DNA from: Myxococcales bacterium
GTDB lineage: Bacteria > Myxococcota_A > Bradymonadia > UBA7976 > UBA1532
Direction: 5' to 3'
DNA length: 64,000 nucleotides
NCBI GenBank assembly: GCA_002731825.1
Contig: PCCS01000048.1
Coordinates: forward strand, 1-64,000
The notes beneath the pieces are model-generated. The model was not told the DNA's origin. It worked only from the letters and a program-made list of their open reading frames with translations, and made no database searches. Below, one piece after another: positions 29,268-52,360 of the stretch. The position numbers and the translations under genes were made by a program. Within the stretch, counting starts at the first letter, position 1; the number at the start of each line of letters is the position of its first letter.

Positions 29268-31889
29268 CTACTGCTCTACAGCTGCGGCCGCACAGGCCCC
29301 ACAACTGCCGATCCCATCTGCGAAACAGACAGGTCCAACAGACACTGTATTGCCGCTGTTCACATCAGCTGCGGCCACGTCGAATTGGTAGTTATTATTC
29401 TCACCACCCGTTCCACATTCCACAGGTGCACTGGAGATGGTGACCCATGCACCGATGGATGGCTTCCACTCGTAGTTGTCTGGTGCCAAGTACTGCAGAA
29501 AGGTGTAAATGCCATCTGCGTCCAGGTCGGTTGCCGTATTTGAGCAATCACCGCACCACTCATTGAATTCACCCTGAATGTTGGGGGCTTGGTCTGCGCC
29601 ATAGTCATTCATGTCGACGTTGATCTCAACGCGTGCCCAGCCGCAGACCGTCTGCTCTCCACAGGTCCACCATTCGTTGGTGGCCGTGCAAACAGCGCCG
29701 TCGAAACAACCCTGGCAATCGTTAGGACAGCCATTGGCTGCAGGCCCCGGATCCACTGGTTCCACTGGTTCAGCACCCGGGCGGACAGTGATGTTGTCGA
29801 TGAGGAGGACACCCCCAGCGCCAACCACGGCGCCAGCGGCCAGATTGAAATCAATGCGGAAAAGACCCCCATTGGCGTCGATGTTATTGACCTGGAAAGT
29901 ATAGGTCGTCCAATCGTTTTCATTAAGTCCATTTGCCTGAATGTCAAATTGGGTCATGGGATCAATGCCAGGAAAAGCCATGCCCACATGGACGGCTGTG
30001 GCAACCAGTGGAGCGCCCAGCTTTGCAGCAAAAGAGACCTCAACATTGGTGTTTCCGGCGTAGTTGATAGCGTCACTGCTGTACTGATGAATGTAGGCGC
30101 GACCCACGTCTTCAGCATTCTCTGCCGCGATCCGAAGCGCGCCGCCTTCAACACCCTGTGCATCGGCCCAAGTGGCCCCGTCGGCTGCGGCATCTCCGAG
30201 GGCTGTCCACCCATCCACGGACGCGGCATCATCAAATGTCAGGGACACGATATCAGCGGGCGGGTCAACGGGCTGGATGATGCACTGCCCAGCATCGCAA
30301 ATTTGCCCTTCGGCACAATCTGCATCGGCCATGCAAGCCGGTGGTTCAACGGCCTCACAGGCACCACAGCTACCCACCCCATCGGCAAAGCAAACAGGCC
30401 CAACGGAGATGGTATTACCACTGTTTACGTCGGCTGCAGCCACATCGAACTGATAGTTATTATCCTCACCGCCAGTTCCACACTCGGCGGGCGCGCTTGC
30501 GATGGTGACCCAGGCACCTATGGATGGCTTCCACTCGTAATTGTCAGGGGCTAGGTATTGGAGGAAGGTGTAGATCCCATCTTCATCCGGGTCGCTGGCC
30601 GTATTGGAGCAATCGCCACACCAACCATTAAATTCACCCTGAATGTTCGGTGCTTGGTCAGCTCCATAGGCCGTCATATCAACATTGATCTCTACACGCG
30701 CCCAACCGCAGACCGTCTGCTCTCCACACGTCCACCACTCATTGGTTTGCGTGCATACACCGCCGTCAAAGCACCCCTGACAATCACTGGGACATCCGTT
30801 TGGCGCGACGACAACCGCCGCTGCGCACACTCCGTCTGTGCATGTCTGGCCTTCGCCACAATCGGCATCGGCCATACAGGCCATGGGCGGTTCAGGCGCA
30901 CACTCACCACAGCTATTGTAGACGTCAACGCTCGACTCTTGCCCAATCAAAAATAGGCGATTGGCGTATGAATTATTGTCGCTGTTAAAAGCGCCGCAGT
31001 CCGTGAGCGTTGCATTGGCGGCTCGCAAGTCTTCCTGCACATCGTTTAGAACCCATAAGTACTCCATGGTCGAATCAGGGGCCGGTGCGAACGTGACCGT
31101 CCAAATGCCATCACCATCTTCATCGGTCCCCGCCGGACCTCCAGCAGGATCCCAGCCCCACCAAGGCCCAGTGATGCGAGCGCTGGTGACAGCATCTACG
31201 CCGGCGCACCGGGTGTCTAGGCTCACTGTGACCATGTCCTCTGGCGTAAACTCTTCGCCGCATGCAGTGCAACTGCCCCATGTATCAGTGCGGTCCCCGC
31301 TACCCGCAACGTGTAATCGATTCGCAAACCCTTCGGACGGATTTGCGATAGGCGTACAGGCGCCGATTGGTGCTGCGGGATCACCGACGAAAGTGGGTTC
31401 CCACTGGCCGTTGATGACCCACTTGTATTGCATGTCGTCCATGGGCACGTCGTTCAAGGTCATTGAATAAATTCCATCGCCGTCTTCGTCTGTACCCACG
31501 GGAAGGTCGTCGCCTTCTAAGGCCCAACTCCACCAGGGCCCAGTGAGGACCACCGTCTCGATATTTTCAATTCCAGAGCAGGTGGTATCCAGGTGAATGG
31601 TCAATCCCATTGGCATACTCCCACCAGCACCACCCATGCCACCGGCACCGCCTTCAGCTCCTGCACCACCGGCACCGCCTTCAGCCCCTGCACCACCAGC
31701 ACCGCCTTCAGCTCCTGCACCACCGGCACCGCCTTCAGCCCCTGCACCACCCGCACCGCCACTGCCACCCATGCCTGCTTCACCACCGGTGCCCCCGGTA
31801 TTGCTGCTGGATGAGTCACTGTCGCCACAAGCCACAAAGCCCAGTGCGAGTAAGGTTGCCAAAAATAGTCGAATGAACGTGTTAGTCAT
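29268..31889 (-). CDS. Multidomain surface glycan-binding lipoprotein
   Basis: The 873-residue product starts at ATG 31889 (GGGAAGAG upstream; lipobox LGFVACG). After a Gly-rich tether come two E-set/CBM-like A domains, each with GPWW-W and D-DGDGI-Y/W motifs (~95-220, ~222-340). A B domain (~365-495) with Cys pairs and IQGEFNGWCGDC follows, then a CBM4/9-like jelly roll (~540-715) and a near-identical second B domain (~725-865). Short Cys-knots (CMADADCGEGQTC) join them. FNGW is typical of glycogen/starch-type CBM48-like folds, and GPWWGWDP modules occur on laminarinases. There is no catalytic domain, so it is probably a SusE/F-like glycan receptor. A ROK-type operator lies upstream. Confidence 0.8.
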   Translation of the reverse strand: MTNTFIRLFLATLLALGFVACGDSDSSSSNTGGTGGEAGMGGSGGAGGAGAEGGAGGAGAEGGAGGAGAEGGAGGAGAEGGAGGMGGAGGSMPMGLTIHLDTTCSGIENIETVVLTGPWWSWALEGDDLPVGTDEDGDGIYSMTLNDVPMDDMQYKWVINGQWEPTFVGDPAAPIGACTPIANPSEGFANRLHVAGSGDRTDTWGSCTACGEEFTPEDMVTVSLDTRCAGVDAVTSARITGPWWGWDPAGGPAGTDEDGDGIWTVTFAPAPDSTMEYLWVLNDVQEDLRAANATLTDCGAFNSDNNSYANRLFLIGQESSVDVYNSCGECAPEPPMACMADADCGEGQTCTDGVCAAAVVVAPNGCPSDCQGCFDGGVCTQTNEWWTCGEQTVCGWARVEINVDMTAYGADQAPNIQGEFNGWCGDCSNTASDPDEDGIYTFLQYLAPDNYEWKPSIGAWVTIASAPAECGTGGEDNNYQFDVAAADVNSGNTISVGPVCFADGVGSCGACEAVEPPACMADADCAEGQICDAGQCIIQPVDPPADIVSLTFDDAASVDGWTALGDAAADGATWADAQGVEGGALRIAAENAEDVGRAYIHQYSSDAINYAGNTNVEVSFAAKLGAPLVATAVHVGMAFPGIDPMTQFDIQANGLNENDWTTYTFQVNNIDANGGLFRIDFNLAAGAVVGAGGVLLIDNITVRPGAEPVEPVDPGPAANGCPNDCQGCFDGAVCTATNEWWTCGEQTVCGWARVEINVDMNDYGADQAPNIQGEFNEWCGDCSNTATDLDADGIYTFLQYLAPDNYEWKPSIGAWVTISSAPVECGTGGENNNYQFDVAAADVNSGNTVSVGPVCFADGIGSCGACAAAAVEQ
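29283..29740. repeat. Direct repeat, copy 1 (C-terminal B domain)
   Basis: A ~458-bp segment is repeated in the same orientation at about 30346-30805 within the same gene. The proteins they encode are almost identical; DNA differs mainly at third positions, indicating a fairly old internal duplication kept under selection. Confidence 0.8.
30346..30805. repeat. Direct repeat, copy 2 (first B domain)
   Basis: Partner of 29283-29740; encodes the first Cys-containing B domain of the glycan-binding lipoprotein. Confidence 0.8.
31654..31760 (-). repeat. 27-bp tandem repeat coding GAEGGAGGA
   Basis: About four copies of a 27-bp unit encode a Gly/Ala/Glu tether just after the lipidation site. Copies differ by single silent changes, showing recent slippage or unequal crossing-over. 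Confidence 0.85.
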
Positions 31890-32278
31890 TAACTCTTCCC
31901 CGTGTTTTAGTCTGTCAAGATGTGTTGCCGGTCTCTGAGATGAGATCGCCAAAAAAACAGTTACCTGGAAAACCAGTGTTACCCCATGCATTTCCCCCTT
32001 TGTTCGTAAACCAAACAAAGTGTATAAAGCAAGCGCCAAACGCAATTTTATGCGGTCTTTGATGCAGACAGAGCACCGAAATCACAAACGATTTTGATTT
32101 ATAGACCGAGTTGACGGTCCATGGTTGCAAACCTCAGAGACAAATCCGACCCATCTCGGCTTAAACGGCGAGGTCCTCAACATGGACAGCGTGCCGAAAA
32201 CGACTCGATTCAGACGAAATCACCGACCGTAATTGGATGCAAATATAATGGGGTCTTAGATGACAAATCTCTCGCTGC
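31890..32278. other. Intergenic, 389 bp, with operator-like palindrome
   Basis: It is upstream of the glycan-binding lipoprotein and downstream of the last operon gene. It holds the palindrome at 31999-32019 and, next to it on the minus strand, a -10-like TTTATAC (about 32022-32028). No gene or clear terminator for the operon was seen. Confidence 0.5.
31999..32019. promoter_or_regulatory. Second (degenerate) ROK-type operator
   Basis: Half sites TTTGTTCG and AACAAA have the same spacing as the perfect 21-bp palindrome at 48083-48103: 16 of 21 positions agree, with outer bases identical. It lies about 110 bp before ATG 31889, beside a TATAC-type -10. It suggests that the glycan-binding lipoprotein is controlled by the same repressor. 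Confidence 0.6.
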
Positions 32279-34198
32279 TCATCGCGTCCAAAGCACGTTT
32301 TTGAGGAAGACTTGGCCGATGTCGTCACCTTCGGATGCGTCCAAGAGAATCTCGAAACCGGTTTTTACTTCGGTCGCCCTTTGATCGTTCAATTCAATCC
32401 GATAGGTCTGCGGCGTGTCAGACAGCTCGATCAGCCCACTCTCAGCCCGAAACGTTTCTCGATTAGACCCGACTGCAAAGGATGCTGTCGTACCGGCCTT
32501 ATCAGACCATGCAACGAAGGTCACCTCGGTCGTACCCGCCTGAATAGTCAGACCGGGTTCATCGCCCCAATTACCCCCTGGATGCTGCCATCTGATCCCA
32601 AACCAGCCACCCGCCTCTGGGGGCTGCCAACGGATACCCATGCACACACCTCCGCAGAAATCCCCAGCCGTCGGACAGTCTTCGAGACTCAACTGGTCTG
32701 TATCACCCATCCAGCCCGTGGGGACAAATTGGTCTAGAGCCGATAAGGGCAGAGGGGCCTGTTGGGTTGCCTCGCCGAGAACGAGGAAAGGATGGGACCC
32801 ATGGCTGATACGGCCTTGCGTGCCCTCGGCAAATCCAAATAATCGCCAGTGGCCTGGTTGTTGAGGCACGTTGATAGAAAGTGTGTCCGACCGATTGCCG
32901 ACGGGCTCACAAAGGGCGCGTGTATGCCAATCTATCCCAAGACCCAACTCATCTCGAACAAGAACCCACCAGTAGGTCATGGGATCGCCTTCAGGATCGA
33001 TTGCGTTGATTCGAGCCTCGAGACGGTCGCCTGGATTAAAGCGTGTTTGATCGATTGTCAGACCCATCACATCGGGCCCCCGATTATCTGGTGCGATGCC
33101 AGTCCATGCTTCCACAAGGGCGTCGATCATGGTGGTCGGCACCGTTCTCTGCTGGGTCTCGCCCGGTACAGGCGGGGCGAGACCATAGAGTGAAAACCAG
33201 GTGTCCGTTGGCCTGGCTGGTGGAGTCCAAATGAAAGCATAGCCACCGAGTGCCCTGCGGGCGTCCTGCTTGATGGCTCGATACGCATTTGCGTACGCGA
33301 CTCTTTTCTCTAAGCCAGATGGTTCAATGGGTCGACCCCATTGTGTCAGAGGAGACGCCCAGGCACCTCGAGGGCCATATTCGGTGATCAGATATGGACC
33401 ATCCCAGTTTGCTGCTGTCAGGCGCCGGCTAATGGACTCAATGCCTTCATAGACATTGAGTCCCCAAATATCGATACTGGGCGTCAGCGTCCGAATCTTG
33501 TTGGCATTGTCCTGACCTAATTCTGCTGTGACCGCCATGGTTGGTGTATCCGGATCGATTTCTTTAATCATGGCGGCAATGTCTTCAATGGCAGCCCAGA
33601 CTTCCGGGATATCATTATTCAATTCAACCTCATTACCCACACCCCAAACTAAGAGCGCCGGATGGTCCTTGAACTGTAAAACCCATTGCCGCACGGCCTC
33701 TTTCTGAGCTGCGACAGCCGCTGAATCTCGATAATCAAAGCCATGCTCAGCGTGTCCAAGCCACAGGCCTAGACTCACTGTGAGACCGAGTTGGTGAGCC
33801 TCATCGAGAAGCGCTTGGGTATTCTGGTCGATCCCCCATGTCCGAATGCTATTTCCGCCGGCTGCTTTGAGCGCCGGCAGGTCATAACTGCCACCGGCAC
33901 CACGCACATGGTAAGGGTGTCCATGCCGCCAGAGCTGCCACCCATCGGGGCTCCTGCGCAGTGCTCCATTGAGCGCCTCGGGCACAATACCCTGGTCACT
34001 CATTGACGCGTCTGTATCGTCCATTGCGTCGCCAGGCCCCATGGCCATGCCTCGAGGCCCTGTGCCCGACGTTGTGCTCTCTGGTTCAGTCACCAAAGCC
34101 GCATCTGGCGCCGACCTCAGTGTGACATCACACCCGCACATCCCAAACGTAACCAGTCCAAGCACGTTCACGACGATGCGGCGACCTAGATGGGTCAT
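32279..34198 (-). CDS. Clan GH-A glycosidase lipoprotein with C-terminal beta-sandwich module
   Basis: The 639-residue protein has lipobox FGMCGC followed by an Asp-rich tether. The (beta/alpha)8 domain (~75-370) carries the clan GH-A acid/base in WGVGNEVE (E190) and the nucleophile in LITEYGPRG (E273), in the style of the GH2 catalytic barrel and related glucanases. A middle beta domain (~380-490) and a C-terminal sandwich (~500-639; FVPTGWMGD...GIRWQHPGGNWGDEPGLTI) follow. That module recurs in the lipoproteins at 34195 and 46329. It is the last gene of the operon, overlapping the preceding one by ATGA. The substrate is probably a beta-glucan, judged from context. Confidence 0.8.
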   Translation of the reverse strand: MTHLGRRIVVNVLGLVTFGMCGCDVTLRSAPDAALVTEPESTTSGTGPRGMAMGPGDAMDDTDASMSDQGIVPEALNGALRRSPDGWQLWRHGHPYHVRGAGGSYDLPALKAAGGNSIRTWGIDQNTQALLDEAHQLGLTVSLGLWLGHAEHGFDYRDSAAVAAQKEAVRQWVLQFKDHPALLVWGVGNEVELNNDIPEVWAAIEDIAAMIKEIDPDTPTMAVTAELGQDNANKIRTLTPSIDIWGLNVYEGIESISRRLTAANWDGPYLITEYGPRGAWASPLTQWGRPIEPSGLEKRVAYANAYRAIKQDARRALGGYAFIWTPPARPTDTWFSLYGLAPPVPGETQQRTVPTTMIDALVEAWTGIAPDNRGPDVMGLTIDQTRFNPGDRLEARINAIDPEGDPMTYWWVLVRDELGLGIDWHTRALCEPVGNRSDTLSINVPQQPGHWRLFGFAEGTQGRISHGSHPFLVLGEATQQAPLPLSALDQFVPTGWMGDTDQLSLEDCPTAGDFCGGVCMGIRWQPPEAGGWFGIRWQHPGGNWGDEPGLTIQAGTTEVTFVAWSDKAGTTASFAVGSNRETFRAESGLIELSDTPQTYRIELNDQRATEVKTGFEILLDASEGDDIGQVFLKNVLWTR

Positions 34199-34818
34199 GG
34201 CGATGCACTAACCCACTGAATATTATCGATTGAGAAAACCACTTGCTCGCCCGCTTGGGTGCACGTCCAGACAAAACCACCCACGACGCGACCATAGTCT
34301 ACATCTGTCAACTCCAAACGATACTCGGTGGGTGATGTTGTCAACTCAACATTGCTCAGTTCGACTGAGAAACCATCGACGTCTCCCATACCAGTGCCAA
34401 AAGTGACCACTTCATTTCCCGTCTCGCCCCATGCGGTGAACTGGACAGCAGTGGCGCCCGTCGGGATATTCAAACCAGTGGCGGTCCCCCAGTTTCCATC
34501 AGGGAATTGCCAGTAGACACCCGCCCATGCTTTCTCTCCTGGGGTCCAGACAAACCTGTGGCAATTACCGAATGCGTCGGGGGCGCGCGTCTCGCACGTT
34601 GTGTCTTCGATCAAGCCGTCTTCACCATCGCCCATATAGCCACTTGGACCAAACCAGTCATCTACGGTCAGCGGCAATTCAGGTGTTGGATCAGCCATCC
34701 CGTTTGCACCTGCGTCAAATTGAAAGGTTTCCTGGTCGTCGTAGAAGGACGTATCAGGCTCTGGCCTGCAGGCTGTCAGCATAAAGGCCATCAAAATCAG
34801 ACTCACCATATTGTTCAT
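34195..34818 (-). CDS. Lipoprotein with one PSGYMGD beta-sandwich module
   Basis: ATG 34818 overlaps the previous stop (ATGA). The signal ends MAFMLTAC. After a short tether the single module of ~165 residues starts VDDWFGPSGYMGDGEDG and includes GVYWQFPDGNWGTATGLNI, VQFTAWG, TFGTGMGDVDGFSV and GGFVWTCTQ, ending in a strand IDNIQWV. The module pattern, with a jelly-roll-like strand order and exposed Trp, suggests a carbohydrate-binding role. It matches the three modules of 46329-48056 almost motif for motif. Confidence 0.75.
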   Translation of the reverse strand: MNNMVSLILMAFMLTACRPEPDTSFYDDQETFQFDAGANGMADPTPELPLTVDDWFGPSGYMGDGEDGLIEDTTCETRAPDAFGNCHRFVWTPGEKAWAGVYWQFPDGNWGTATGLNIPTGATAVQFTAWGETGNEVVTFGTGMGDVDGFSVELSNVELTTSPTEYRLELTDVDYGRVVGGFVWTCTQAGEQVVFSIDNIQWVSASP

Positions 34819-35375
34819 CGAACGAGTACCTCCTCCCCATTTAAATCGACCACCAATGACCATGGGCTTGGATCGCCACCAAGACTCTCCAATGCTCGGA
34901 AGGCATCCGGTCGAATCGGGTAGGCAACAGTGCCCGTAATGTCATAGGTCACCGCATCCGGGAAATTGTCTAAAACAGAACGGAATGCGGCGATGGCCAA
35001 TTGCCTTACGGTCTCGCCATCACTTTCAGGGACTAAGTTTCGCTGATAAATGGCCTTCAAATTAAGCCCGACGTAATACTGATGTTCACCCGTCGGTTCA
35101 GTGGCAAGCCATGTCGCCCAGCTGTAAAACGCGGCGATGGGTTGTCGAGCACTTTCAATGTCCCATTTTGTTTCTTCACCGGAGCGCTCAAAACGAAAGG
35201 GATTATTCGGATCATTGAGAACGGTCTGGCTTGGATGAATACCCAAGCTGGGATCATTCGTATTCAGAGACAGCGCCTCAAACTGGGCGCCGTAAAGAAA
35301 CTCTCCTGTCTCGCCGCAGGCTACGATGCAGAGTAGACCCACCCACAGTGTGACGCGTGTTATTATGGTCTTCAT
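34815..35375 (-). CDS. Small lipoprotein of unknown function
   Basis: The 186-residue protein has signal VTLWVGLLCIVAC (lipobox IVAC) and overlaps both neighbours by ATGA. The mature part (FLYGAQFEALSLNTNDPS..., YYVGLNLKAIYQRNL, TVRQLAIAAFRSVLDNFPDAVTYDITG) is alpha/beta without Cys. Its position between the barrel-glycosidase and the module lipoprotein suggests an accessory role in the surface complex. No family was recognised. Confidence 0.7.
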   Translation of the reverse strand: MKTIITRVTLWVGLLCIVACGETGEFLYGAQFEALSLNTNDPSLGIHPSQTVLNDPNNPFRFERSGEETKWDIESARQPIAAFYSWATWLATEPTGEHQYYVGLNLKAIYQRNLVPESDGETVRQLAIAAFRSVLDNFPDAVTYDITGTVAYPIRPDAFRALESLGGDPSPWSLVVDLNGEEVLVR

Positions 35376-38300
35376 AGGGCAATATCCATGTATGTTCCAA
35401 TTTCATATTCAACTGCGTCGACGTAGCTGGAGCCTTCTATGAGGCCTTCCGAGAAACGGTCGAGACGACGATATTGGGCCCGGATACCGATTCGAGTGCC
35501 AGCATTCTCTAGACTCAACTTTCGCAGCCCCCATGACACGTCGCTATAGAGCTGGAAAGGGTATGTGAGATTGAAATCTCGATGAAAGTCATATGGACCC
35601 CAGTCATCGAATTTGAGGGCAGATGTAAAAGCCCAGCGATCCCACCACATATTGACATCGGTCCCGTAGCGAAACACACGCCTTGAATCGTCACCAAAGG
35701 CATCCTGATTGCCAACATAGGCGCTGCCGAATAAACGAGCACCGCCACCAGGGTTCGAGACCCATAGAAGGTTGGCATCCCACGTATCCCGAGCCGGTGG
35801 GGCTGCGCCAAAGGCAGCCATGCCCGTATCAAAGATGGCCACGTGTCCATCCTGGGTGGTTGGATGGTGGCGGTAGATGATGCTCAGTGCCGCCGCAAAT
35901 CCAGCCGTTTCCGTTTCCGTTCGGTTCCAATTCCAAAACCAGTTTTCTGGCGTTGGATCAAACACAAAGAGCAGTTCGCCAGCGATGGTCTCTCTGTTAT
36001 CGCGGACAGCAAACGGATCATCGAGTACATTTCGAGCGCCCACACCTGGATAATAAATACCCGTCGTTGGGCTCAAGTAGTCGCCGATGGGTTTATTGGG
36101 TCCAATGAGCGGTTGCTGATAGAGGACCTTTGGTTCGATACGAAAGGCTTGGCTGACCGCGAAATCAACACCCAATTCGCCGCCGTAATGGTTACCTCGC
36201 CCACTCTGATGCAGTCGCCAGCCGGTGGGGAAATTATTGGGGCCACCATCGGCGACCAGACCGTAATAGCCACCCTGTAGATGAATAATGGCGCGACCGA
36301 CATTCCAATTGAAGCGCGCTTTAGCGCCGAGCGTATCGGCCCAATTGATCTGGTCGTCAATGACGTCGAGACCTTGGTCTAAGTAACCACGACCCGCCAC
36401 GTCTCGTTGCCACCGAAAGGACCGACCGACTCTCTCTGAACCCGCAAAAATCCCACCCAGGGCCGCACGCCCCCCGAGAAAAGGAAACTCGAGATTCAGG
36501 GTGGATTTTCTCGTTTTTTGTTCGGGAACAGCAAAACTCGATGTCGTTTGCGCTCGCCTCGCGATGTCTTCCTGATGGACTAATGTTAAATTGAGGGCGC
36601 CCAATGACCTTTGATATTTGGCGATGACCATCGGGTTCGCACCCCAATAAATCTCAGGGCCAAACGCCAATTTAAGTCCGCCCAATGCCCCCTTGCCGGT
36701 GACCAGAGCACCGACGGGCGCCACACCGTTATAAATGTCGGTATTGGGGCCGTAATTGGCTTCTCTATACAGTCCGAATAAGTCCCCTTCATCGCCCCAA
36801 TGATAATGACCCGTCCGGTAAAAACCATGGATGTCAGCCACAGAACTCTTCACTGTGAACTCAGCTTGATAGACGCGTATGGGTTGCAAATCCGTTTCCG
36901 TCACGGACTGACCCGCGTCATCGAGCCTCAGGTATTCGCGACCCCGATTTTCGTAAAAGGTCTTGTCCAGTCGGTTTTGAGCGACATTGCCGAGTATGTT
37001 GAGGACCAATCGACCGTTCAACTTGGATGATGGCCGGAGCGTCACTTCGGGGAAAAAGGATTCCGTATGGTCATAGACATCGGGGCCTGCATGCTCCGTC
37101 GCGCCGCGACCGCCCGAAAACGTGCCGCTCAAATACATCCGAAGACCGGTCACTTGAACGCGATTACTCTCCTGGACTTGAGCCTTTACTGATGCCACGT
37201 CGTATGGTGAACCGAGCCGATTGATATCGAGGGTATCGAAATGAGTCTTGATGACCTTTGGATCGGTGTTCTGGGCATATGGGTCTAAGGACCACGCATC
37301 GCGCAGAACATAGTAAGTGGCCCTCGGTTGTAGCGTGTAGTGGCCATCATCATCAGGCCTAGATTTGGCGGTAATCCCAAACCACTCCTCATTCATATTA
37401 TTGCCGTTTTCAACGAAATCGGGATAGCCCCGGTTGGGCCATGACGCGTTGGTGTCATGGACATCCAGATTGGTGTGCTGTTTGTATTTCCACCAGCCAT
37501 CACTCCACTGGAAAACAAACCCGCCAACCGCCGTTCCGGCCCCGCCATGTCCATAGCTTTGTAGGTAGATTTCTTCCCACTGTGCCTTGAGGACTTTGGC
37601 CTGCATGAGATGGTCTTCGCGGTCATCCCGCGCATTGTAGGCATCGGCTCCAAATTCGCTAAAGAGGACGGGCCTTTTGAGAATGGTCTTCACCTTATCG
37701 TACAGGTCGCGCATCGATGGCCCTCGGTAGACATTAGTGCCCATAATGTCGACATCGCCGCAGTGCTTTTCGATTAAATCAATGTACTGTAGGTCTCCAT
37801 TGGTCATGGTGATAGGCCGCTTGGGATCGATGGCTTTGATGATGGTCGCAGCCTCACCTAGAAGGGTGTAGAGATGGACGGCTTTTGCATCATATGCTTT
37901 GCCTGGCAGCGCCTCAATCTCATGTGATGTCCAGTGCAATCCGTAATTATTTTCATTACCGAGCATGTAGAGCAGGACGCCTCGAACATTCTTAAATCGC
38001 TCCACCGTCGATTTCAAATCGTCTAAGATCGCCTTCCGATGGGCTGGGTTGTTGTAATCAATGTTGGGTACAAACGTGCCGTTGACATCGAACCCGTAGC
38101 GACCCATCAGATGATTGACAGCCGTGTAAATGCCGTACTTGTCTCGCATCCAGGTGATCCATTTTGGAGGAACGGTATTAAAAAGCCGAATGGAATTGAC
38201 ACCCATGGCCTTGAGCAACTTCATCTCTCGGTGAAGAACCGTCTCGATAAAGTCGGTGGGTTTAGACCATAGGTCGTAGCTGTAGTTCGTCCCAACGGGC

Positions 38301-38449
38301 ACATACCCCCAGTTCATACCCCGAATTAAAAAGTCTTTACCCTCTACAGAGAGCTTGTAGCCCTTGGCATCTGAATGGACACGAACCGTCTCGACCTGTG
38401 CCCAGGCTGGTGTCGTCAAAAGACACAGCGTGATGAGGAATCCCTTCAA
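35372..38449 (-). CDS. Clan GH-A glycosidase fused to an outer-membrane beta-barrel
   Basis: The 1025-residue protein has signal peptide GFLITLCLLTTPAWAQ. Residues ~20-390 form a GH2-like TIM barrel: FLIRGMNWGYVPVG, MGVNSIRLFN, acid/base in YMLGNENNYG (E166) and nucleophile in LFSEFGADA (E265), with WSDGWWKYKQH late. The remaining ~600 residues are repeated amphipathic Gly/Tyr/Trp-rich strands (RLVLNILGNVAQN, GRAIIHLQGGYYGL, GGELGVDFAVSQAFRIEPKVLYQQ, ARLFGSAYVGNQDAF) with no catalytic motif, as expected of a large outer-membrane barrel. Adjacent to GH1 (1 bp) and overlapping the next gene by ATGA. The fusion would anchor or thread product at the surface. Confidence 0.8.
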   Translation of the reverse strand: MKGFLITLCLLTTPAWAQVETVRVHSDAKGYKLSVEGKDFLIRGMNWGYVPVGTNYSYDLWSKPTDFIETVLHREMKLLKAMGVNSIRLFNTVPPKWITWMRDKYGIYTAVNHLMGRYGFDVNGTFVPNIDYNNPAHRKAILDDLKSTVERFKNVRGVLLYMLGNENNYGLHWTSHEIEALPGKAYDAKAVHLYTLLGEAATIIKAIDPKRPITMTNGDLQYIDLIEKHCGDVDIMGTNVYRGPSMRDLYDKVKTILKRPVLFSEFGADAYNARDDREDHLMQAKVLKAQWEEIYLQSYGHGGAGTAVGGFVFQWSDGWWKYKQHTNLDVHDTNASWPNRGYPDFVENGNNMNEEWFGITAKSRPDDDGHYTLQPRATYYVLRDAWSLDPYAQNTDPKVIKTHFDTLDINRLGSPYDVASVKAQVQESNRVQVTGLRMYLSGTFSGGRGATEHAGPDVYDHTESFFPEVTLRPSSKLNGRLVLNILGNVAQNRLDKTFYENRGREYLRLDDAGQSVTETDLQPIRVYQAEFTVKSSVADIHGFYRTGHYHWGDEGDLFGLYREANYGPNTDIYNGVAPVGALVTGKGALGGLKLAFGPEIYWGANPMVIAKYQRSLGALNLTLVHQEDIARRAQTTSSFAVPEQKTRKSTLNLEFPFLGGRAALGGIFAGSERVGRSFRWQRDVAGRGYLDQGLDVIDDQINWADTLGAKARFNWNVGRAIIHLQGGYYGLVADGGPNNFPTGWRLHQSGRGNHYGGELGVDFAVSQAFRIEPKVLYQQPLIGPNKPIGDYLSPTTGIYYPGVGARNVLDDPFAVRDNRETIAGELLFVFDPTPENWFWNWNRTETETAGFAAALSIIYRHHPTTQDGHVAIFDTGMAAFGAAPPARDTWDANLLWVSNPGGGARLFGSAYVGNQDAFGDDSRRVFRYGTDVNMWWDRWAFTSALKFDDWGPYDFHRDFNLTYPFQLYSDVSWGLRKLSLENAGTRIGIRAQYRRLDRFSEGLIEGSSYVDAVEYEIGTYMDIAL

Positions 38450-39799
38450 CTAAATCCCTCCTTTCTGGATCAAATCCCGATACCAATGCGCGCTTTGCTT
38501 TGGTGTACGGTCTAAGGTGTCATAGTCCACATAGACGAGCCCAAAGCGTTTTTCATAGCCAAAAGCCCATTCGAAATTATCCAAGAGAGACCAGGCGTAA
38601 TATGCGGTCAACGGAACCCCCTGCTCGATGGCTTTGGCGCAGGCTCTAATATGCCCATCAAAGTATGCGATGCGCTCAGTATCTTCGACGATGCCATCAG
38701 CGTTCGGAGCTGTTGCATAGGCACAGCCATTCTCGGTCACTTGAATGGCTTTGGGATTGTAATCATCTTTAAGTCGAACCAAGATTTGCTCTAGACCCAA
38801 CGGCCAAACTTCCCAGCCCATGTCCGTTTCGTTTTTCGTCGAAACCACATCGGGCGGATCGTTATTCTCGGCTTTTTCATCGCGAATGACGGCGCGCGAA
38901 TAGTAATTGATGCCGAGAAAATCGCTGTCCGCAGCAATGGTCTCTAAATCACCTTTGTGCAGAAAAGGAAGGTCCGATGATGGAATCTCTCCGGCTTTGA
39001 CCAGGTCTGCAACCCGATCAGCTGGATAGCCTCGCCCAAAGACCGGATCGAGATACCAGCGATTGAAAAAACCGTCGAAATGACGACAGGCATCGCGATC
39101 CGCCCCACTCTGAGACGCGGGTTCATTAGGCACCAGATTGACCGTGATGCCCACCTCGCCGTCGGGAACATTATCTCGGATAATAGGCACAGCTAATCCA
39201 TGGCCCAACATCACATGATGTGCCGCCGATAAAGCCTTGGGCCAGTCGTTCTTAATCCCCGGAGCATGTTCGCCGTTGATATAACCGAGAACGCTGATAC
39301 ACCACGGTTCATTGATGGTCACCCAGGTCTTGACTCGATCTCCAAGGGCACGGGAAATGGTCTCTGTGTAGTCTGCGAATGCATAGGCGGTGTCCCGATT
39401 CGTCCAACCGCCTTGATCTTCAAGAATCTGAGGTAAGTCCCAGTGATAAAGTGTCACGCAGGGATCGATACCGGCCTCGAGTAACCCATCCACGAGCCGC
39501 GAATAAAAATCGATACCTTTTTGGTTGGTCGCACCACGTCCAGTGGGAATAATCCGCGGCCATGCAACAGAAAACCGATAGGCGCCAACCCCCATATCAG
39601 ACATAATCTTTACGTCTTCTGGCCATCGATTGTAATGGTCGCACGCCACATCACCATTGGTGTTGTCAGCGATGGCTCCAGGTCTCTTACATAGGCGATC
39701 CCAGATACTTTCTGAGCGCCCATCAACATCGACTGCACCTTCGATTTGAAACGAGGATGTCGCAACACCCCAAACAAAGTTATCTGGAAACTTAAACAT
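38450..39799 (-). CDS. GH1 beta-glucosidase
   Basis: The 449-residue protein matches the family length. The GH1 opening PDNFVWGVATSSFQIEGA, the acid/base glutamate in TWVTINEPW (~165) and the nucleophile glutamate in QVTENGCAY (~356) are all present, as is WSLLDNFEW. There is no signal peptide, so it is cytoplasmic. ATG 39799 (AAAGG upstream) gives the conventional N-terminus; an in-frame extension reaches 39889 and would overlap the ABC gene. It would cleave imported beta-glucosides such as cellobiose or laminaribiose. Confidence 0.9.
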   Translation of the reverse strand: MFKFPDNFVWGVATSSFQIEGAVDVDGRSESIWDRLCKRPGAIADNTNGDVACDHYNRWPEDVKIMSDMGVGAYRFSVAWPRIIPTGRGATNQKGIDFYSRLVDGLLEAGIDPCVTLYHWDLPQILEDQGGWTNRDTAYAFADYTETISRALGDRVKTWVTINEPWCISVLGYINGEHAPGIKNDWPKALSAAHHVMLGHGLAVPIIRDNVPDGEVGITVNLVPNEPASQSGADRDACRHFDGFFNRWYLDPVFGRGYPADRVADLVKAGEIPSSDLPFLHKGDLETIAADSDFLGINYYSRAVIRDEKAENNDPPDVVSTKNETDMGWEVWPLGLEQILVRLKDDYNPKAIQVTENGCAYATAPNADGIVEDTERIAYFDGHIRACAKAIEQGVPLTAYYAWSLLDNFEWAFGYEKRFGLVYVDYDTLDRTPKQSAHWYRDLIQKGGI

Positions 39800-39860
39800 T
39801 TGAGCCAGGCCTTTCATGGACTTGAGTCGTAAATAGAGACGGGAATAGAAACATGGGTGA

Positions 39861-40673
39861 TTAGCCTTCCTCGCTGAGGGCATCACCATCGGATGGCCGA
39901 GAGTTTAAGAAAAGGCCATCTGGGTCTGGGACCGATGCACACAGTAAACGTGTATAGTCGTGGGTTGGCCGCTGCAAGACATCCGAGGTCGTGCCACTTT
40001 CAACACAGACCCCTTTTTTGAGTACAAAAACTCGGTCGGCGATTGCTTCAACGCTTTTCAGGTCGTGAGTGATCAACACGATTCCAAGGCCGTCGGCCTT
40101 CAGCGACTTCAAGAGCATCAAGACCTCATGTCGAATAGAGACATCCAGCATCGAGGTCGGCTCATCAGCAATGAGGAAGTCTGGTTTGGCGGCGAGCGCG
40201 CGAGCGATGGCCACACGTTGACGCTGTCCGCCGCTCATGGAATCCGGGTAGCGGTCAATATAGAGTGACGCCGGATTGAGCTCGACATGCTCGAGTAATC
40301 GCTCGCATTCGGCATCGACTGCTTGGCGACCGTTGATAGTCTCTCGAAGTTTCCGGATCGGCCTGGCCAGATGCGTCCGGACCGTATGGACTGGATTTAA
40401 TGACGCAAAGGGGTCTTGGAAAACCATCTGCACGTCCTTTAGCGTGGGCGTTCGCATGCCGGCAGAATCGGTCAACCTCACGGAGCCAGACGTGGGTCTC
40501 TCTAAACCTACAATCATACGAGCCACTGTACTTTTACCCGACCCAGACTCACCGACAACAGCCACGATCTCGCCTTGCTCAATTTGAGCCGTAAAGCCAT
40601 CAACGGCCTTTACAGACTGGCCATCAAACCGAAATGTTTTGCACAGTGTGTCCAGGGAGAGCGACTTCATCAT
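39861..40673 (-). CDS. Opp/Dpp-type ABC transporter ATPase (OppF-like)
   Basis: The 270-residue protein has Walker A GESGSGKST, signature MSGGQRQRVAIARAL, Walker B FLIADEPTS and switch His in LITHDLKS. The extra C-terminal oligopeptide segment (HDYTRLLCASVPDPD) is shortened. It is coupled by ATGA to the preceding ATPase. With the four other transport genes it forms an importer of the dipeptide/oligopeptide superfamily, some of which carry cello- and other oligosaccharides in Thermotoga. Confidence 0.88.
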   Translation of the reverse strand: MMKSLSLDTLCKTFRFDGQSVKAVDGFTAQIEQGEIVAVVGESGSGKSTVARMIVGLERPTSGSVRLTDSAGMRTPTLKDVQMVFQDPFASLNPVHTVRTHLARPIRKLRETINGRQAVDAECERLLEHVELNPASLYIDRYPDSMSGGQRQRVAIARALAAKPDFLIADEPTSMLDVSIRHEVLMLLKSLKADGLGIVLITHDLKSVEAIADRVFVLKKGVCVESGTTSDVLQRPTHDYTRLLCASVPDPDGLFLNSRPSDGDALSEEG

Positions 40674-41476
40674 GTTCGCTCCTCTGGAGAGCCATCTCCT
40701 CCATCTTCCAGGAGCTGCATTGATGCCAGTAATTGCTGTGTGTAGGGATGTTCAGGTCGTCGACGGAGAGCAGATGGTGTATCGGCCTCGCAGACGAGTC
40801 CATCTTTCATAATGATAATGCGGTCGCTCATCGCCAAAAGCACCGGCAAGTCATGGGTAATAAATAAGATCGAGAAGTTGAGCTCTTTTTGAAGACGCTG
40901 AAGACCCCTTAAAATATGGCGCTGAACGACAACATCCAATGCGGTTGTGGGCTCATCCAAAATCAGCAGCTTTGGTTTTAAGACCAGTGCCAATGCGATG
41001 CCAACCCGCTGCCGCATGCCTCCAGACAGCTGATGTGGATAAGAACTCAAAACTCGATTTTCGAGGTCCACAAATCTCAGGAATTCGCGTAATTGTGCTG
41101 GGGCCAGTCGCCGCCCAAGGCGTGCGATGGCTAGGTCTTGAAATTGAGCTTCGATGGGAAGGACGGGGTTGAGGCTATCTAAGGCGCTTTGGAAGACCAT
41201 GGCCATTTCAGTCCATCGCATGTCACGCAAATCTGAACGAGACATGGTCAAAACATCCCGACCATTGAGCAGGACCGAACCACCAGAGATAAAGCCAGGT
41301 GGCTGGAGAATTCTCATAATGGCTTTTGCAACCGTTGATTTCCCCGAGCCACTCTCCCCAGCCAGACCGATCACTTCACCCTGGTTGACATGAAAGTCGA
41401 TTCCGTGGACCGCACGCGCAGGACCATTGGGGGTCGCGTAGTCGACAGACAAACCACGAACGGTCAACAGGTTCAT
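40670..41476 (-). CDS. Opp/Dpp-type ABC transporter ATPase (OppD-like)
   Basis: The 268-residue protein shows Walker A GESGSGKST, the Q-loop MVFQSALDSLNPVLPI, signature LSGGMRQRVGIALAL and Walker B LLILDEPTTALDV, followed by the OppD-type tail HPYTQQLLASMQLLEDG. It overlaps both neighbours by ATGA. It pairs with the OppF-like subunit as a heterodimer energising the permease at 41473-43400. Confidence 0.88.
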   Translation of the reverse strand: MNLLTVRGLSVDYATPNGPARAVHGIDFHVNQGEVIGLAGESGSGKSTVAKAIMRILQPPGFISGGSVLLNGRDVLTMSRSDLRDMRWTEMAMVFQSALDSLNPVLPIEAQFQDLAIARLGRRLAPAQLREFLRFVDLENRVLSSYPHQLSGGMRQRVGIALALVLKPKLLILDEPTTALDVVVQRHILRGLQRLQKELNFSILFITHDLPVLLAMSDRIIIMKDGLVCEADTPSALRRRPEHPYTQQLLASMQLLEDGGDGSPEERT

Positions 41477-42423
41477 GTCTCCCCCTCAGCTGTGGCAAAA
41501 TCAACGTCTTTTGGGGGCATCGAATGAACGACGGCGGTGTCCAAATCAGGCTGCTGACCAGTGGACGCCTTGAAATGTCGACGCGTGGCCAATGACGGAT
41601 TGGTGATCTCATCGAGAGCGAAGGTCATCAGGACCAAACCAAAGGCAAAGAAGGCGATGCCTAAGCCCGTCGGAAGAAAGGTCCACCACGCGCCGGTGAG
41701 CAAGGCTTGATTTTGCGTCGCCCAGTACAGATTTGTCCCCCATGTCACATTTGAAGGGTCACCGAAACCCAGGAATTCAAGACCCACTTGAGCACCCACA
41801 GCAAAGGTGGTTGCCCCAATGAAGGACGTGCCAATGAGTGAGGCCATGTTGGGTACGAGATGATAGAAAATGACCGTCATCGATCCATCACCCGACAGGC
41901 GCGCTGCCTCAATGAATGGTCGTCGGCTCAAGGTCATTGCCTGACTTCGTAAGACACGAGCCCCCCATGCCCACCCCGTTCCGATCAAAACGATTGCGAT
42001 GATCAAGGGACCCGAGATGGTGTCGCTGTGTTGCTGGAAGACAGCGGCCAAGACGATCAGCAAGGGCAGGCTCGGAATCAAAAGAAAGATGTTAATAAAG
42101 AGGTTCAAAAAGAGGTCTACTCTACCTCCAAAAAACCCGGCCGTGACACCAAAAAGAATACTGAGAAAGGTCACACCCGCCCCGATAAGCAGGGAATAGA
42201 AAATCGTGGGAGCAGCCCCATAGAGGGTTTGGATGAAGACGTCCTTACCCTGCATGTTTGTACCGAACCAAAAGGTACTGTCTGGGGCTGCGAGGATCGG
42301 TCCGGCCTCCGCATTGGCCATGTTGGCGTCGTACAAAACAACCCCAATGAGCGCCACTAGGATCAAACCGCCCACGAGGAGGCTGCCGAGGCGGGCTTTT
42401 CGATTGGACCAAAACGCTTTCAT
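41473..42423 (-). CDS. ABC transporter permease (OppC/DppC-like)
   Basis: The 316-residue protein has one N-terminal helix (RLGSLLVGGLILVALIGVVL) then the DppC periplasmic loop with STFWFGTNMQGKDVFIQTLYGA, five further helices, and the EAA-like loop (FIEAARLSGDGSMTVIFYHLVPN) that contacts the ATPases. A ~40-residue hydrophilic C-terminal extension is unusual. Overlaps both neighbours by ATGA. Confidence 0.88.
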   Translation of the reverse strand: MKAFWSNRKARLGSLLVGGLILVALIGVVLYDANMANAEAGPILAAPDSTFWFGTNMQGKDVFIQTLYGAAPTIFYSLLIGAGVTFLSILFGVTAGFFGGRVDLFLNLFINIFLLIPSLPLLIVLAAVFQQHSDTISGPLIIAIVLIGTGWAWGARVLRSQAMTLSRRPFIEAARLSGDGSMTVIFYHLVPNMASLIGTSFIGATTFAVGAQVGLEFLGFGDPSNVTWGTNLYWATQNQALLTGAWWTFLPTGLGIAFFAFGLVLMTFALDEITNPSLATRRHFKASTGQQPDLDTAVVHSMPPKDVDFATAEGET

Positions 42424-43400
42424 CGACCGCCCCTCGTTCTCGGATCGAGCACATAGTAGAGGGCATCGACCAGAATGTTCGCGAGCAAGACGGAGAGGGT
42501 AATCATCAGAAAGATGCCCTGCATGAGGGGGTAGTCCTGACTCAGGATTGCCTTAAGAAGCAGGTAGCCTAAGCCGGGGTAGGAGAAGACCACTTCTGTG
42601 AGCAATGCACCGCTCACGATAAAACCGAGTGCCATGCCGAAGCTGGTGAGGCTAGGCAGCAAGGCATTTCGCATTGCATAGGCGACAAAGATGCGCCGTC
42701 TCGACAGACCCTTTGCATGAGCGAGGCAAACATACTCATCACCCATAACGCCAATCATGGTGTTGCGCATCACGAACAGCCAACCACTCAAGGAGGCGAG
42801 TACAATGGTTAGACACGGTAAAAAACCGTGACTCACCAAATCGTAGATAAACCCGCCATTGAAGCCGGGGGCGCTGTACGGCCCGTAAGCCATCCCTAAG
42901 GGGAACAACCCCCATTCTAGACCAAGGAAGAAAAGTAAGATCATCGCCAAAAAGAAATAAGGAAACGCCGCTAAGAAAGCGACGGCTGGAGGTACGATGG
43001 CATCGAAACGACCGCCTTGCCGCCAGGCAGCATACGCACCCAGCCCAGTGCCGACGACCACGCTGATCAAAACCGCGACCCCTGAGAGACCAACGGTCCA
43101 AATAAAGCCGATTTTAATCACCCCGAGGACCGGTTCGGGATGAAAGGCGATGGACAAACCAAATTCGCCTTGGGCCAGTTGCGCTATGTAATCCCAGTAT
43201 TGCTTCAATAAAGGGGCATCGTTTAAGCCTAATTGTTGCCGAAGTGCCTCCATTGCGTCCGGTTTCAATTTGCCTTTGAATCGAGCAAAGAGGGCGGATG
43301 CTGGGTCACCGGGCATGAGTCGGGGAATCAAGAAATTGAGAGTAATGACCGCCCAACCCGCAACGGCATACAACCCCATTTTGCTGAGAAGGAAGTTCAT
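42420..43400 (-). CDS. ABC transporter permease (OppB/DppB-like)
   Basis: The 326-residue protein begins with the DppB signature (YAVAGWAVITLNFLIPRLMPGDP) and has six helices and the cytoplasmic loop LAHAKGLSRRRIFVAYAMRNALLP. It starts immediately after the stop of the substrate-binding protein (adjacent at 43400/43401), and overlaps the OppC-like gene by ATGA. Confidence 0.88.
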   Translation of the reverse strand: MNFLLSKMGLYAVAGWAVITLNFLIPRLMPGDPASALFARFKGKLKPDAMEALRQQLGLNDAPLLKQYWDYIAQLAQGEFGLSIAFHPEPVLGVIKIGFIWTVGLSGVAVLISVVVGTGLGAYAAWRQGGRFDAIVPPAVAFLAAFPYFFLAMILLFFLGLEWGLFPLGMAYGPYSAPGFNGGFIYDLVSHGFLPCLTIVLASLSGWLFVMRNTMIGVMGDEYVCLAHAKGLSRRRIFVAYAMRNALLPSLTSFGMALGFIVSGALLTEVVFSYPGLGYLLLKAILSQDYPLMQGIFLMITLSVLLANILVDALYYVLDPRTRGGR

Positions 43401-45080
43401 TTAAGGGCCCCCCGCGCCCGTACGGTCGGCGATCCCATCGGACGTGTTTTTGGTACGCGGGGCGATGGTCGTCATTAACAGTAAGCGTTCTGGGTCTGCA
43501 TGGGGGCTCAGCTTCGCATAGGGCTTTTTAGCATTGGGGAAACCGACAAAGTGACGCGTCGAATAGGTACCCCAAGATGGATTTGGAAAGAGCGGGATGG
43601 CGGGTAGAGTCTCGATGAAGCGCGCTTGCATTTGGTCGACGAGCTGCTCTCGCTTTAGCCCAGGCGGTGTGCTCGCGAACGTATCTAACAGCATATCGAA
43701 GGTCTTGTCCGCGAAGCGGTGCCAATTGGTGGGACCGGCCTGTCCCACGGGTTTTACGGTTTTGCTCGACGCCAGCCCTCCATAGAATTCGTAGGGTGTA
43801 CTGCCTTCATTTGACCATCCGATGGATAGGTCGAATCGACCCATCTGAACATGCTCGAACCACGCTCCAAAGTCGTATGATTTGACCTGGACATGGATCC
43901 CAATGGCACCCAAATCTTGCTTAATGACCTGGGCCGAACGAATCCAATCGGTCCATCCGTTTACGACTTCAAGACCAAACCTGAGTACTTTGCCCTGACA
44001 CGTCCATTGGTTTTTTTCTTTGCGACAACCCGCGCTGCGGAGAAGAGCCTGTGATTCGTTCGGATTGTGACGAGTCAGAGCTTCCGCCTCCGTCTTGCAA
44101 CATTTCCATCGATCGTACACAGGGCTGAGGCCCGTTCCATCTGCTGGCTGGGTGTAGCCACTCATCCCAATTTTGACCAAGCGGTTCCGGTCGATTGCCA
44201 AACTGATGGCTTTACGGACTCGAGCATCATCAAGGGGCGGTCGAGTCGTATTGGCAAAAAGAAAGACCATGCCACCCAAGGGCGGAAACCAATATTTAAA
44301 ATGGACTGGGTCACGGGGAATATAGGTCCGCTCAATCAGTGGCACATTATGACCCGCCCAATCGATATCTCCACTGACGAGCGCGAGGCTGACCGTGTCG
44401 TTTCCTTGGTAGGCTGGCATACGCAATTTTTTGGCAAGTACAGCCTCTTTCTTCCAATAATTAGGATGCTTGTCGAGCTCAAATAATTGGGTTCTGAAAC
44501 TGCCCACGATCGGGTATGGGCCCGTTCCAACAGGGGTTTCATTGCGAAAGGTTGAGGGCGCCTGAACTTTGACCCAAATGTGCTCGGGGACAATCATTTG
44601 ATGGGCCAATACAGGCAAAGCTGGGTAGTCGGGATGGGCGAGACGAAAGCGAACACGATGGGGCGCCAATTTGTCGATGCCCAATATGCGTTGCCAAACA
44701 GATCCTGTATCGAGAGCGGGATGATTTTTCATGAGTTCAAACGTGAACACCACATCATCGGCATCGAACCCGTTCCCATCGCTCCATTGGACGTCTTTTC
44801 GCAACTCAAATTCCAGGGATAGACTGTCGTCGGACCACCGATGACTGGTGGCGAGCCAAGGGACATATCTGCCAGTCAGCGTATTGTAGATGAGCAAGGG
44901 CTCATAAACACCCGCTCGAGTCGGCCAAAGCGCGTTCGGCGAGAACGGATTGAAATTACGAATCCATGCACTTGTCAGCGTTGCAGACGCCACTAAAACC
45001 TGCTCCTCTGGCTGTCTGCTCTCGCGACGACACGCCGTCGCGCTGACCATGATACAGAGTCCGATGAGCCATCGATTCAT
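43401..45080 (-). CDS. ABC substrate-binding lipoprotein (SBP_bac_5 family)
   Basis: ATG 45080 is preceded by GAGGG and gives a lipobox CIMVSATAC (Cys17). The ~559 residues have the cluster C (SBP_bac_5) layout: NFNPFSPN..VYEPLLIYNTLTGRYVPWLATSHRWSDD, ELRKDVQWSDGNGFDADDVVFTFELMK, and DDARVRKAISLAIDRNRLVKIG. This fold binds peptides, but members in glycan loci bind oligosaccharides; aromatic-rich stretches fit that. Follows the ROK gene by 61 bases. Confidence 0.88.
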   Translation of the reverse strand: MNRWLIGLCIMVSATACRRESRQPEEQVLVASATLTSAWIRNFNPFSPNALWPTRAGVYEPLLIYNTLTGRYVPWLATSHRWSDDSLSLEFELRKDVQWSDGNGFDADDVVFTFELMKNHPALDTGSVWQRILGIDKLAPHRVRFRLAHPDYPALPVLAHQMIVPEHIWVKVQAPSTFRNETPVGTGPYPIVGSFRTQLFELDKHPNYWKKEAVLAKKLRMPAYQGNDTVSLALVSGDIDWAGHNVPLIERTYIPRDPVHFKYWFPPLGGMVFLFANTTRPPLDDARVRKAISLAIDRNRLVKIGMSGYTQPADGTGLSPVYDRWKCCKTEAEALTRHNPNESQALLRSAGCRKEKNQWTCQGKVLRFGLEVVNGWTDWIRSAQVIKQDLGAIGIHVQVKSYDFGAWFEHVQMGRFDLSIGWSNEGSTPYEFYGGLASSKTVKPVGQAGPTNWHRFADKTFDMLLDTFASTPPGLKREQLVDQMQARFIETLPAIPLFPNPSWGTYSTRHFVGFPNAKKPYAKLSPHADPERLLLMTTIAPRTKNTSDGIADRTGAGGP

Positions 45081-45141
45081 AGGGTAGAGACCCTCTTTTG
45101 GTGCAAAGCACAGGCACCTGGAACACAGCAATCTAAGGCTC

Positions 45142-46332
45142 TCATGCGCTCTCTCGTAAAGCGTGTCCAATTCGCCGCACATTATTAAAAAGAGCGCGCA
45201 TCACATAGCCACACGCCCCTTTCGGTACGGCAAGAAACCCATGATTGGTCCAGCTCACTTGGGTATCTGCGCCAACACCGAACAGTGTGCGCTCTTTCAA
45301 CGTGTCTTGGAGACGCTTAAGAAAAGGATCGCCCAGTGCTGTGATGGCGCCTGAGAGATAGATCGTTTCCGGGGCGACAACGTTGACTAATGAGGTCAGG
45401 CCTGTTGCCAGGTTATCCACGAGTCCATTTTGGGTTTTCTGGGCGTCGGCATCGCCGTTTTTTGCTCTCTCGGCTAACTCGTCGAACGCGTCTGCCCCGC
45501 TGCTCCGAATGCCAATTCGACCAACCGCTTCTCTCAGTGCCTCGGCACCGACAAACTTAACGAGGCATCCACGTTGTCCGCAGACGCACTGAGGTCCGTC
45601 TGGGTCGATCGACATGTGTCCAATTTCGCCCGCAATTCCACGCATGCCATAATGGATTTGACCGGAATTAATCATCCCTGCCCCGACGCCGGCACTTAAG
45701 CGGACAAAGATCACGCTCTCAACGTGACCGGTCCACCAATACTCAGCAAAGGCGCCCATATTTGCATCATTATCCACGAAGACCGGCAGTCCGAGCCGTT
45801 GCTCGAGTCCAGTTTGAATATTGATATCAATCCACTGGGGCAAGATCGACGCGTCAAGGTAACCGGGGTTCGACGGGTCTATTGGGCTCGGCACCCCAAG
45901 GCCTAATCCAAGACAGGTCAGCTCGGGTCGCTCGGCGAGTAATGTGGAAATGGCCCCACTGAGTTCATCGAGGACGCAGTGAGCCGACCGACCGTCAATA
46001 CCTGGACTCTGTAGGTTGCCAAGACTCGTACCTCCGAGATCCGTCAGAACGAGCTCGGTCCGCTGTCGACCGAGCTCTGCACCCACGAGAACAAAGCGTT
46101 CCGTTGCCAGTCTGAGCACGATCCCCGGCCGGCCACCGCCATGATTTACAGCACCCGTCTCTTCGATCAAGTCCAAGTCGATGAGATGGGTCACGATGGC
46201 TGAAATGGTTGAGCGGCTCAGGCGTGTTTCTCGCGAGATCTCGGCACGTGTGAGTGATTTTTTCCGCAAGCACTCCAGGACGAGGTAACAGTTCCGCGTC
46301 CTAATATCGGCAATTTCACCCAAGGCATTCAT
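45142..46332 (-). CDS. ROK-family transcriptional repressor
   Basis: The 396-residue protein has an N-terminal MarR-like winged HTH (LTRAEISRETRLSRSTISAI) and a ROK sugar-kinase-like domain with DNDANMGAFAEYWW and the zinc motif GEIGHMSIDP...CVCGQRGCLVK; the usual Glu after GCL is replaced by Val. It is thus a regulator of the XylR/NagC type that should release DNA on binding a sugar. ATG 46332 overlaps the preceding stop (ATGA). Being second gene behind a perfect 21-bp palindrome, it probably autoregulates the operon. Confidence 0.88.
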   Translation of the reverse strand: MNALGEIADIRTRNCYLVLECLRKKSLTRAEISRETRLSRSTISAIVTHLIDLDLIEETGAVNHGGGRPGIVLRLATERFVLVGAELGRQRTELVLTDLGGTSLGNLQSPGIDGRSAHCVLDELSGAISTLLAERPELTCLGLGLGVPSPIDPSNPGYLDASILPQWIDINIQTGLEQRLGLPVFVDNDANMGAFAEYWWTGHVESVIFVRLSAGVGAGMINSGQIHYGMRGIAGEIGHMSIDPDGPQCVCGQRGCLVKFVGAEALREAVGRIGIRSSGADAFDELAERAKNGDADAQKTQNGLVDNLATGLTSLVNVVAPETIYLSGAITALGDPFLKRLQDTLKERTLFGVGADTQVSWTNHGFLAVPKGACGYVMRALFNNVRRIGHALRESA

Positions 46333-51428: not shown

Positions 51429-51484
51429 GCGTTTGTGCGTCGCATTGTCCCCTTTGGCCCGGCTTCAAAGTGGAGAAATGTGAC

Positions 51485-52351: not shown

Positions 52352-52360
52352 GGGTCCATC

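Follow-up and report, generated by a model that had tools for sequence, protein, structure and literature searches.

The gene at 35372-38449 on the minus strand of a 64,000-nucleotide stretch of Myxococcales bacterium DNA (contig PCCS01000048.1, positions 1 to 64,000; hereafter the window) encodes a 1025-amino-acid protein, according to its open reading frame (ORF) and translation, in which a domain resembling glycoside hydrolase (GH) family 158 is followed by a predicted outer-membrane β-barrel. We consider this fusion, with a probability of roughly 60%, to be an outer-membrane uptake protein for β-1,3-gluco-oligosaccharides that carries its own endo-glucanase. Computational support comes from an intact catalytic domain, the barrel fold, the constancy of the fusion, a β-glucan gene context and the lack of an adjacent SusCD pair; from there we infer channel activity (an open pore), the substrate, the periplasmic position of the enzyme and the coupling of cutting to transport. 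The gene and its parts are listed here with their basis.

35372-38449, minus strand: fusion gene, encoding a signal peptide, a GH158-like GH-A domain, a helical linker and a ~24-strand barrel (ORF, 69-sequence alignment, AlphaFold2 (AF2))
38456-38464, minus strand: ribosome-binding site AAAGGAGGG, 6 bases ahead of the TTG (sequence)
38399-38449, minus strand: predicted type I signal peptide, residues 1-17, MKGFLITLCLLTTPAWA / Q (sequence)
37280-38386, minus strand: GH158-like clan GH-A TIM-barrel domain, residues 22-390 (Pfam PF02836, PDB profile, Foldseek)
37952-37954, minus strand: codon of E166, predicted general acid/base (invariant in 69/69; GNE motif aligned with GH158(Pro))
37655-37657, minus strand: codon of E265, predicted nucleophile (invariant in 69/69; EFG motif aligned with GH158(Pro))
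37160-37270, minus strand: two-helix linker, residues 394-430 (AF2 secondary structure, conservation)
35375-37159, minus strand: ~24-strand outer-membrane β-barrel, residues 431-1025 (AF2, Foldseek, strand alternation, loop pattern)

The first-pass annotation of this DNA had reported the ORF without a strand; it is real and lies on the minus strand, the plus strand of the same interval being interrupted by stops. Its TTG start codon at 38449 comes directly after the stop codon of a GH1 gene and is preceded by a ribosome-binding site graded as good from the sequence. Of 68 homologues, only 2 had a lipobox-like motif in their N-terminal region. In three homologues (L006, L009 and L014), a proline-rich stretch 30-60 residues long separates the signal peptide from the enzyme domain. 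The full-length AF2 model had a predicted local distance difference test (pLDDT) value of 85.6 and a predicted template modelling score (pTM) of 0.77.

The protein belongs to a conserved family of ~1040 amino acids, for which named genomes gave at least 558 matches; 80 loci, all full length, were retained from these relatives, and alignment and conservation were analysed on 69 sequences. The enzyme domain matched the GH2-type TIM barrel model PF02836 above its curated cut-off (E 2.4e-10), its best match in a PDB profile search was GH158(Pro) (9oro, E 4.8e-9), and Foldseek likewise placed 9oro first (E 3.6e-14) with BuGH158 (6pal) a close second. As identity to GH158 is only ~17% and GH2 enzymes score nearly as high, we describe the domain from its sequence as GH158-like and not as a proven GH158. 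The catalytic pair of BuGH158 is E137 and E220, with N136 ahead of the first (PMC7157763). E166 and E265 are the respective counterparts of this pair; the GNE motif of GH158(Pro) aligns with N165-E166 and its EFG motif with E265, and N165, E166 and E265 are unchanged in all 69 sequences. Clan GH-A is marked by a TIM barrel whose two catalytic Glu follow strands 4 and 7, with an Asn ahead of the first; together with TIM-barrel secondary structure in the AF2 model these residues place the domain in this clan and, because both catalytic glutamates are invariant, it is taken to be intact, as the earlier annotation had proposed.

For the ~600 residues that follow, the same annotation had suggested an outer-membrane barrel and had named structure prediction as the test that could refute it. 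AF2 modelling of this part alone (residues 394-1025) gave a barrel-like structure and not soluble β-sandwiches (pLDDT 90.5, pTM 0.86), in which 24 main antiparallel strands were counted between residues 431 and 1024. Hydrophobic and polar residues alternate along the strands (z 4.9 against within-strand shuffles; 21 of the 24 strands in the family average), and the segments between strands alternate in phase, with a mean of 22 residues on the putative outer side and 5 on the inner side (Mann-Whitney p = 3e-4). Its signal peptide, its amphipathic antiparallel strands, even in number, and its short turns alternating with long outer loops are those of an outer-membrane β-barrel; in the model, the short turns, long loops and even strand count would leave both termini periplasmic, the standard outer-membrane topology. 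The C-terminal aromatic residue of the β-signal was not found, the last aligned position being mostly Leu or Met, some rows possibly having been trimmed. All 50 of the 50 Foldseek matches listed against the PDB were β-barrels, nearly all of them outer-membrane proteins, and included the TonB receptors BtuB and FepA, OmpF, OccK, AlgE, chitoporin and PapC. A soluble β-sandwich for residues 390-1025 is ruled out by two AF2 models and these fold matches.

Searches of Pfam, NCBIfam and PDB sequences found no family spanning the barrel domain and only marginal matches to unrelated families. Conservation of strand residues is higher for those facing inward (0.64) than for those facing outward (0.52). 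The outer loops 545-578, 600-606 and 951-961 are 85-94% conserved and among the most conserved parts of the protein, which is unusual, and they carry W, Y, D, E and R residues that are nearly invariant; at sequence level, this suggests a specific ligand.

The 80 loci come from Myxococcota, Bacteroidota, Gemmatimonadota, Krumholzibacteriota, Eisenbacteria, Ignavibacteria and others, including the genera Myxococcus, Corallococcus, Pyxidicoccus, Flavobacterium and Cloacibacterium, and Bacteroides finegoldii. A barrel-only profile was run on 783 genomes sampled from three phyla and matched in 24/286 genomes of the window's phylum, 30/297 of that of B. finegoldii and 23/200 of that of a Longimicrobiales genome. 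Full-length matches all lay in frames of more than 1000 amino acids, save one cut by a contig end (G749), and no stand-alone barrel was found in the 783 genomes, partial matches in G421, G506 and G537 being left out. Enzyme-only relatives do exist (L011, 29% identity). The two halves of the fusion have diverged in step with each other (Mantel r 0.66, against at most 0.19 in permutations). The homologue and neighbourhood search that the first-pass annotation had recommended found its architecture kept in at least 80 full-length homologues across many phyla; because of this, and with no stand-alone barrel found in the 783 genomes sampled, a chance fusion or assembly join is ruled out. RefSeq annotates the family only as a 'GH2 TIM barrel' enzyme, the B. 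finegoldii protein carrying the name 'glycoside hydrolase family 2 TIM barrel-domain containing protein'. We found no account of such an enzyme-barrel fusion in the open-access literature, where description elsewhere is possible, and Maribacter laminarin proteomics does not mention it.

Gene context was counted by tblastn over the 80 loci. Neighbours included GH16 (60/80), MFS_2 (33/80), GH1 (30/80), GH149 (26/80; identity certain, 1736 bits against a cut-off of 1150) and GH17 (23/80), as well as GH30, GH158 and importers of the Opp-type ATP-binding cassette (ABC) class or the major facilitator superfamily (MFS). By sequence these neighbours point to β-1,3-glucan catabolism. A SusCD pair lay beside one locus only (L047), in a search made with one SusC and one SusD query that very divergent pairs could escape. 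With the SusD Pfam model, none of 15 barrel-positive Bacteroidota genomes had a match less than 23 kb from the fusion and three had no match at all; SusD genes were present elsewhere in most of them. The RefSeq locus of B. finegoldii reads fusion, lipoprotein, GH16, fimbrillin family protein, hypothetical protein and BglX. In phyla other than Myxococcota, the next gene after the fusion usually encodes a ~620-amino-acid lipoprotein with a weak CBM11-like match (for example L085:3980-5851), homologues of which occur in 25 of 26 Bacteroidota/Ignavibacteria loci and 19 of 29 other loci; this is likely a surface glycan-binding partner. GH149 clusters without susCD have been reported in Bacteroidetes, and the Type I clusters are noted to contain no gene for an outer-membrane transporter (PMC5827456). 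The idea that the fusion is an alternative to SusCD gains support from its β-glucan loci, nearly all of which lack SusCD; conduction of sugar and coupling of hydrolysis to passage are still inferred.

In the window the fusion gene is one of 12 in an operon that runs, with no gaps between genes, from 48056 to 32279 on the minus strand; there is no adjacent SusD gene in it. The neighbours had been described correctly, with GH1 upstream, lipoproteins downstream and an Opp-type ABC importer in the operon, which reads in order:

46329-48056, minus strand: lipoprotein with three tandem 'YMGDG...GWAGVFWQ' domains, first gene of the operon (ORF, gene spacing)
45142-46341, minus strand: ROK-family sugar-responsive regulator (PF00480, E 2.1e-44)
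43401-45182, minus strand: family 5 solute-binding lipoprotein of the importer (PF00496, E 7.6e-73)
39861-43400, minus strand: four Opp subunits of the ABC importer, two permeases and two ATPases (Pfam)
38450-39889, minus strand: GH1 β-glucosidase without an obvious signal peptide (Pfam E 3.7e-162; NCBIfam BGL, 617 bits)
35372-38449, minus strand: the fusion gene
34815-35375, minus strand: small lipoprotein of 186 amino acids, overlapping the fusion stop by 4 bp, a likely partner (homologues, neighbour position)
34195-34863, minus strand: lipoprotein with one 'YMGDG...GWAGVFWQ' domain (ORF; no Pfam match)
32279-34198, minus strand: lipoprotein with a genuine GH158 endo-β-1,3-glucanase domain (phmmer)

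The small lipoprotein has no Pfam match and a homologue in 22 of 25 Myxococcota/delta loci. A true GH158 lipoprotein (phmmer: GH158(Pro) E 3.1e-74, BuGH158 E 2.6e-52) thus shares the operon with the GH158-like fusion. The ~110-residue domain 'VDDWFxPSGYMGDG ... FTWTPG..GWAGVFWQxPDGNWG', present in three tandem copies in the first lipoprotein and one in that at 34195-34863, is undescribed, Pfam giving no convincing match, and apparently also occurs at the C-terminus of the GH158 lipoprotein; it is probably a glucan-binding module.

Other genes of the window include, on the minus strand, an 867-amino-acid secreted protein (48345-50948) with a hydrophobic/basic C-terminal tail like a sorting signal and no Pfam or NCBIfam match, and a lipoprotein (29268-32045) in which a stalk rich in Gly and Ala is accompanied by a pullulanase X25-type domain and two almost identical Cys-rich repeats. 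On the plus strand, 51470-58549 appears from its sequence to be a histidine operon containing fusions: the frame at 52361-54079 combines a HisC-like aminotransferase with a HAD-type hydrolase domain, and that at 56020-57303 a HisA-like protein with a HisI/HisE-like part.

In the uptake reading, surface lipoproteins would cut and hold β-1,3-glucan, these being the GH158 and YMGDG proteins in the window and GH16 with the binding lipoprotein elsewhere. Oligosaccharides would then cross through the ~24-strand barrel, selected by its conserved aromatic and acidic extracellular loops. The tethered GH158-like domain would shorten the incoming chains from the periplasmic side; as the N-terminus is periplasmic by the predicted topology, the enzyme would by default be periplasmic and act after passage, not at the surface. 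Entry into the cytoplasm would be through the Opp-type ABC importer or, in other phyla, an MFS symporter, and GH1 (or GH149/GH17) would there complete the breakdown of the oligosaccharides. More tentatively, and at rather less than an even chance, the fusion may represent a distinct class of outer-membrane glycan importer that apparently does not depend on SusCD and has no TonB plug that can be recognised; the endo-glucanase, tethered at the periplasmic mouth, would take the place of the plug and draw transport onward by cutting chains as they emerge. Spread over Myxococcota, Bacteroidota, Gemmatimonadota and others, this class could be the missing outer-membrane step of SusCD-less β-glucan clusters. 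β-1,3-Glucans, which include laminarin and glucans of the fungal cell wall, rank with the largest pools of carbon that bacteria eat, and SusCD is the standard model for their uptake in Bacteroidota. Many β-glucan clusters have neither SusCD nor a named outer-membrane transporter, for which this widespread fusion family is a plausible candidate, so that the fusion may be an overlooked route for sugar-chain uptake.

Several observations weigh against uptake. The strand count depends on a predicted model; the best TM-score (template modelling score) among the solved structures listed is ~0.4, with no solved family close, so that openness of the pore cannot be judged from it; the conserved loops might fill the barrel lumen; there is no sign of energy coupling, as the Pfam plug (PF07715) gave no match in the fusion protein at E 0.1, the TonB box not having been systematically sought; SusC near the loci was sought with a single query; and the helix before strand 1 resembles the classical autotransporter helix, so that the enzyme might be displayed at the surface.

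The most plausible of the rival explanations, which we nevertheless consider improbable, is that the barrel is a mere anchor, its lumen shut by the conserved loops, which keeps the glucanase at the outer membrane, the sugars being carried by generic porins or a distant SusCD. Extracellular loops of fixed length and very high conservation could indeed plug the lumen, and most barrel-positive Bacteroidota genomes do have SusD genes elsewhere; but a lipid anchor, as used by the neighbouring surface enzymes, would be far cheaper than ~600 conserved residues whose inward face is more conserved than the outward, and the three Bacteroidota genomes lacking a SusD match still have the fusion. Somewhat less probable again is autotransporter-like self-secretion, by which the barrel would display the N-terminal enzyme at the surface to digest polymer. 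The order of N-terminal enzyme, helix (409-427, ahead of strand 1) and C-terminal barrel is the same; however, autotransporter barrels have 12-16 strands against ~24 here, none of 69 members matched a Pfam or NCBIfam autotransporter translocator, the helix falls in the linker (394-430), which is less conserved than any other segment compared, and a surface lipoprotein GH16 or GH158 is already encoded in the loci. Last and very unlikely is export, in which the barrel would secrete a polysaccharide and the hydrolase would edit it, as with AlgE, PgaA/PgaB or BcsC/BcsZ, for although exporters are often paired with a hydrolase and AlgE is among the fold matches, the neighbour types identified are catabolic (phosphorylase, β-glucosidases, ABC/MFS sugar importers, ROK and hybrid two-component system (HTCS)-type regulators) and no glucan synthase was among the neighbour families examined in the part of the neighbours scanned.

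Compared with known systems, the fusion shares the one-chain order of N-terminal enzyme and C-terminal barrel with type V autotransporters, including the patatin-type Vd, which differ in strand number and in the POTRA domain of Vd, and with which it has no sequence match. The Type I GH149 and carbohydrate-active enzyme clusters have the same gene set (ABC importer, GH16, GH17, GH30 and GH149), the enzyme-barrel fusion being unmentioned in the passages describing them (PMC5827456). In AlgE, PgaA and BcsC a barrel also works with a periplasmic hydrolase or deacetylase, but as separate polypeptides or tetratricopeptide repeat (TPR)-barrel fusions in biosynthetic operons. The SusCD importers of Bacteroidota would have the same role and occupy similar loci (GH16, GH3, GH17, GH30, GH149, binding lipoproteins and an HTCS-type regulator), whereas the fusion has neither a Pfam plug nor a SusD partner, its barrel is unrelated in sequence and its enzyme is in the same chain; SusC and other TonB-dependent transporters combine the N-terminal plug PF07715 with 22 strands, as against ~24 in the model. 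Substrate-specific porins such as LamB and the chitoporin ChiP, the latter kind being represented among the fold matches, are likewise outer-membrane barrels for oligosaccharides but have 16-18 strands and no enzyme domain. The GH158 enzymes BuGH158 and GH158(Pro) are the best structural match, with aligned catalytic glutamate motifs; they carry a lipoprotein signal where the fusion has a type I signal peptide, and the fusion lacks the Ig-like C-terminal domain of BuGH158, the place of that domain being taken in the AF2 model by the helical linker and the membrane barrel.

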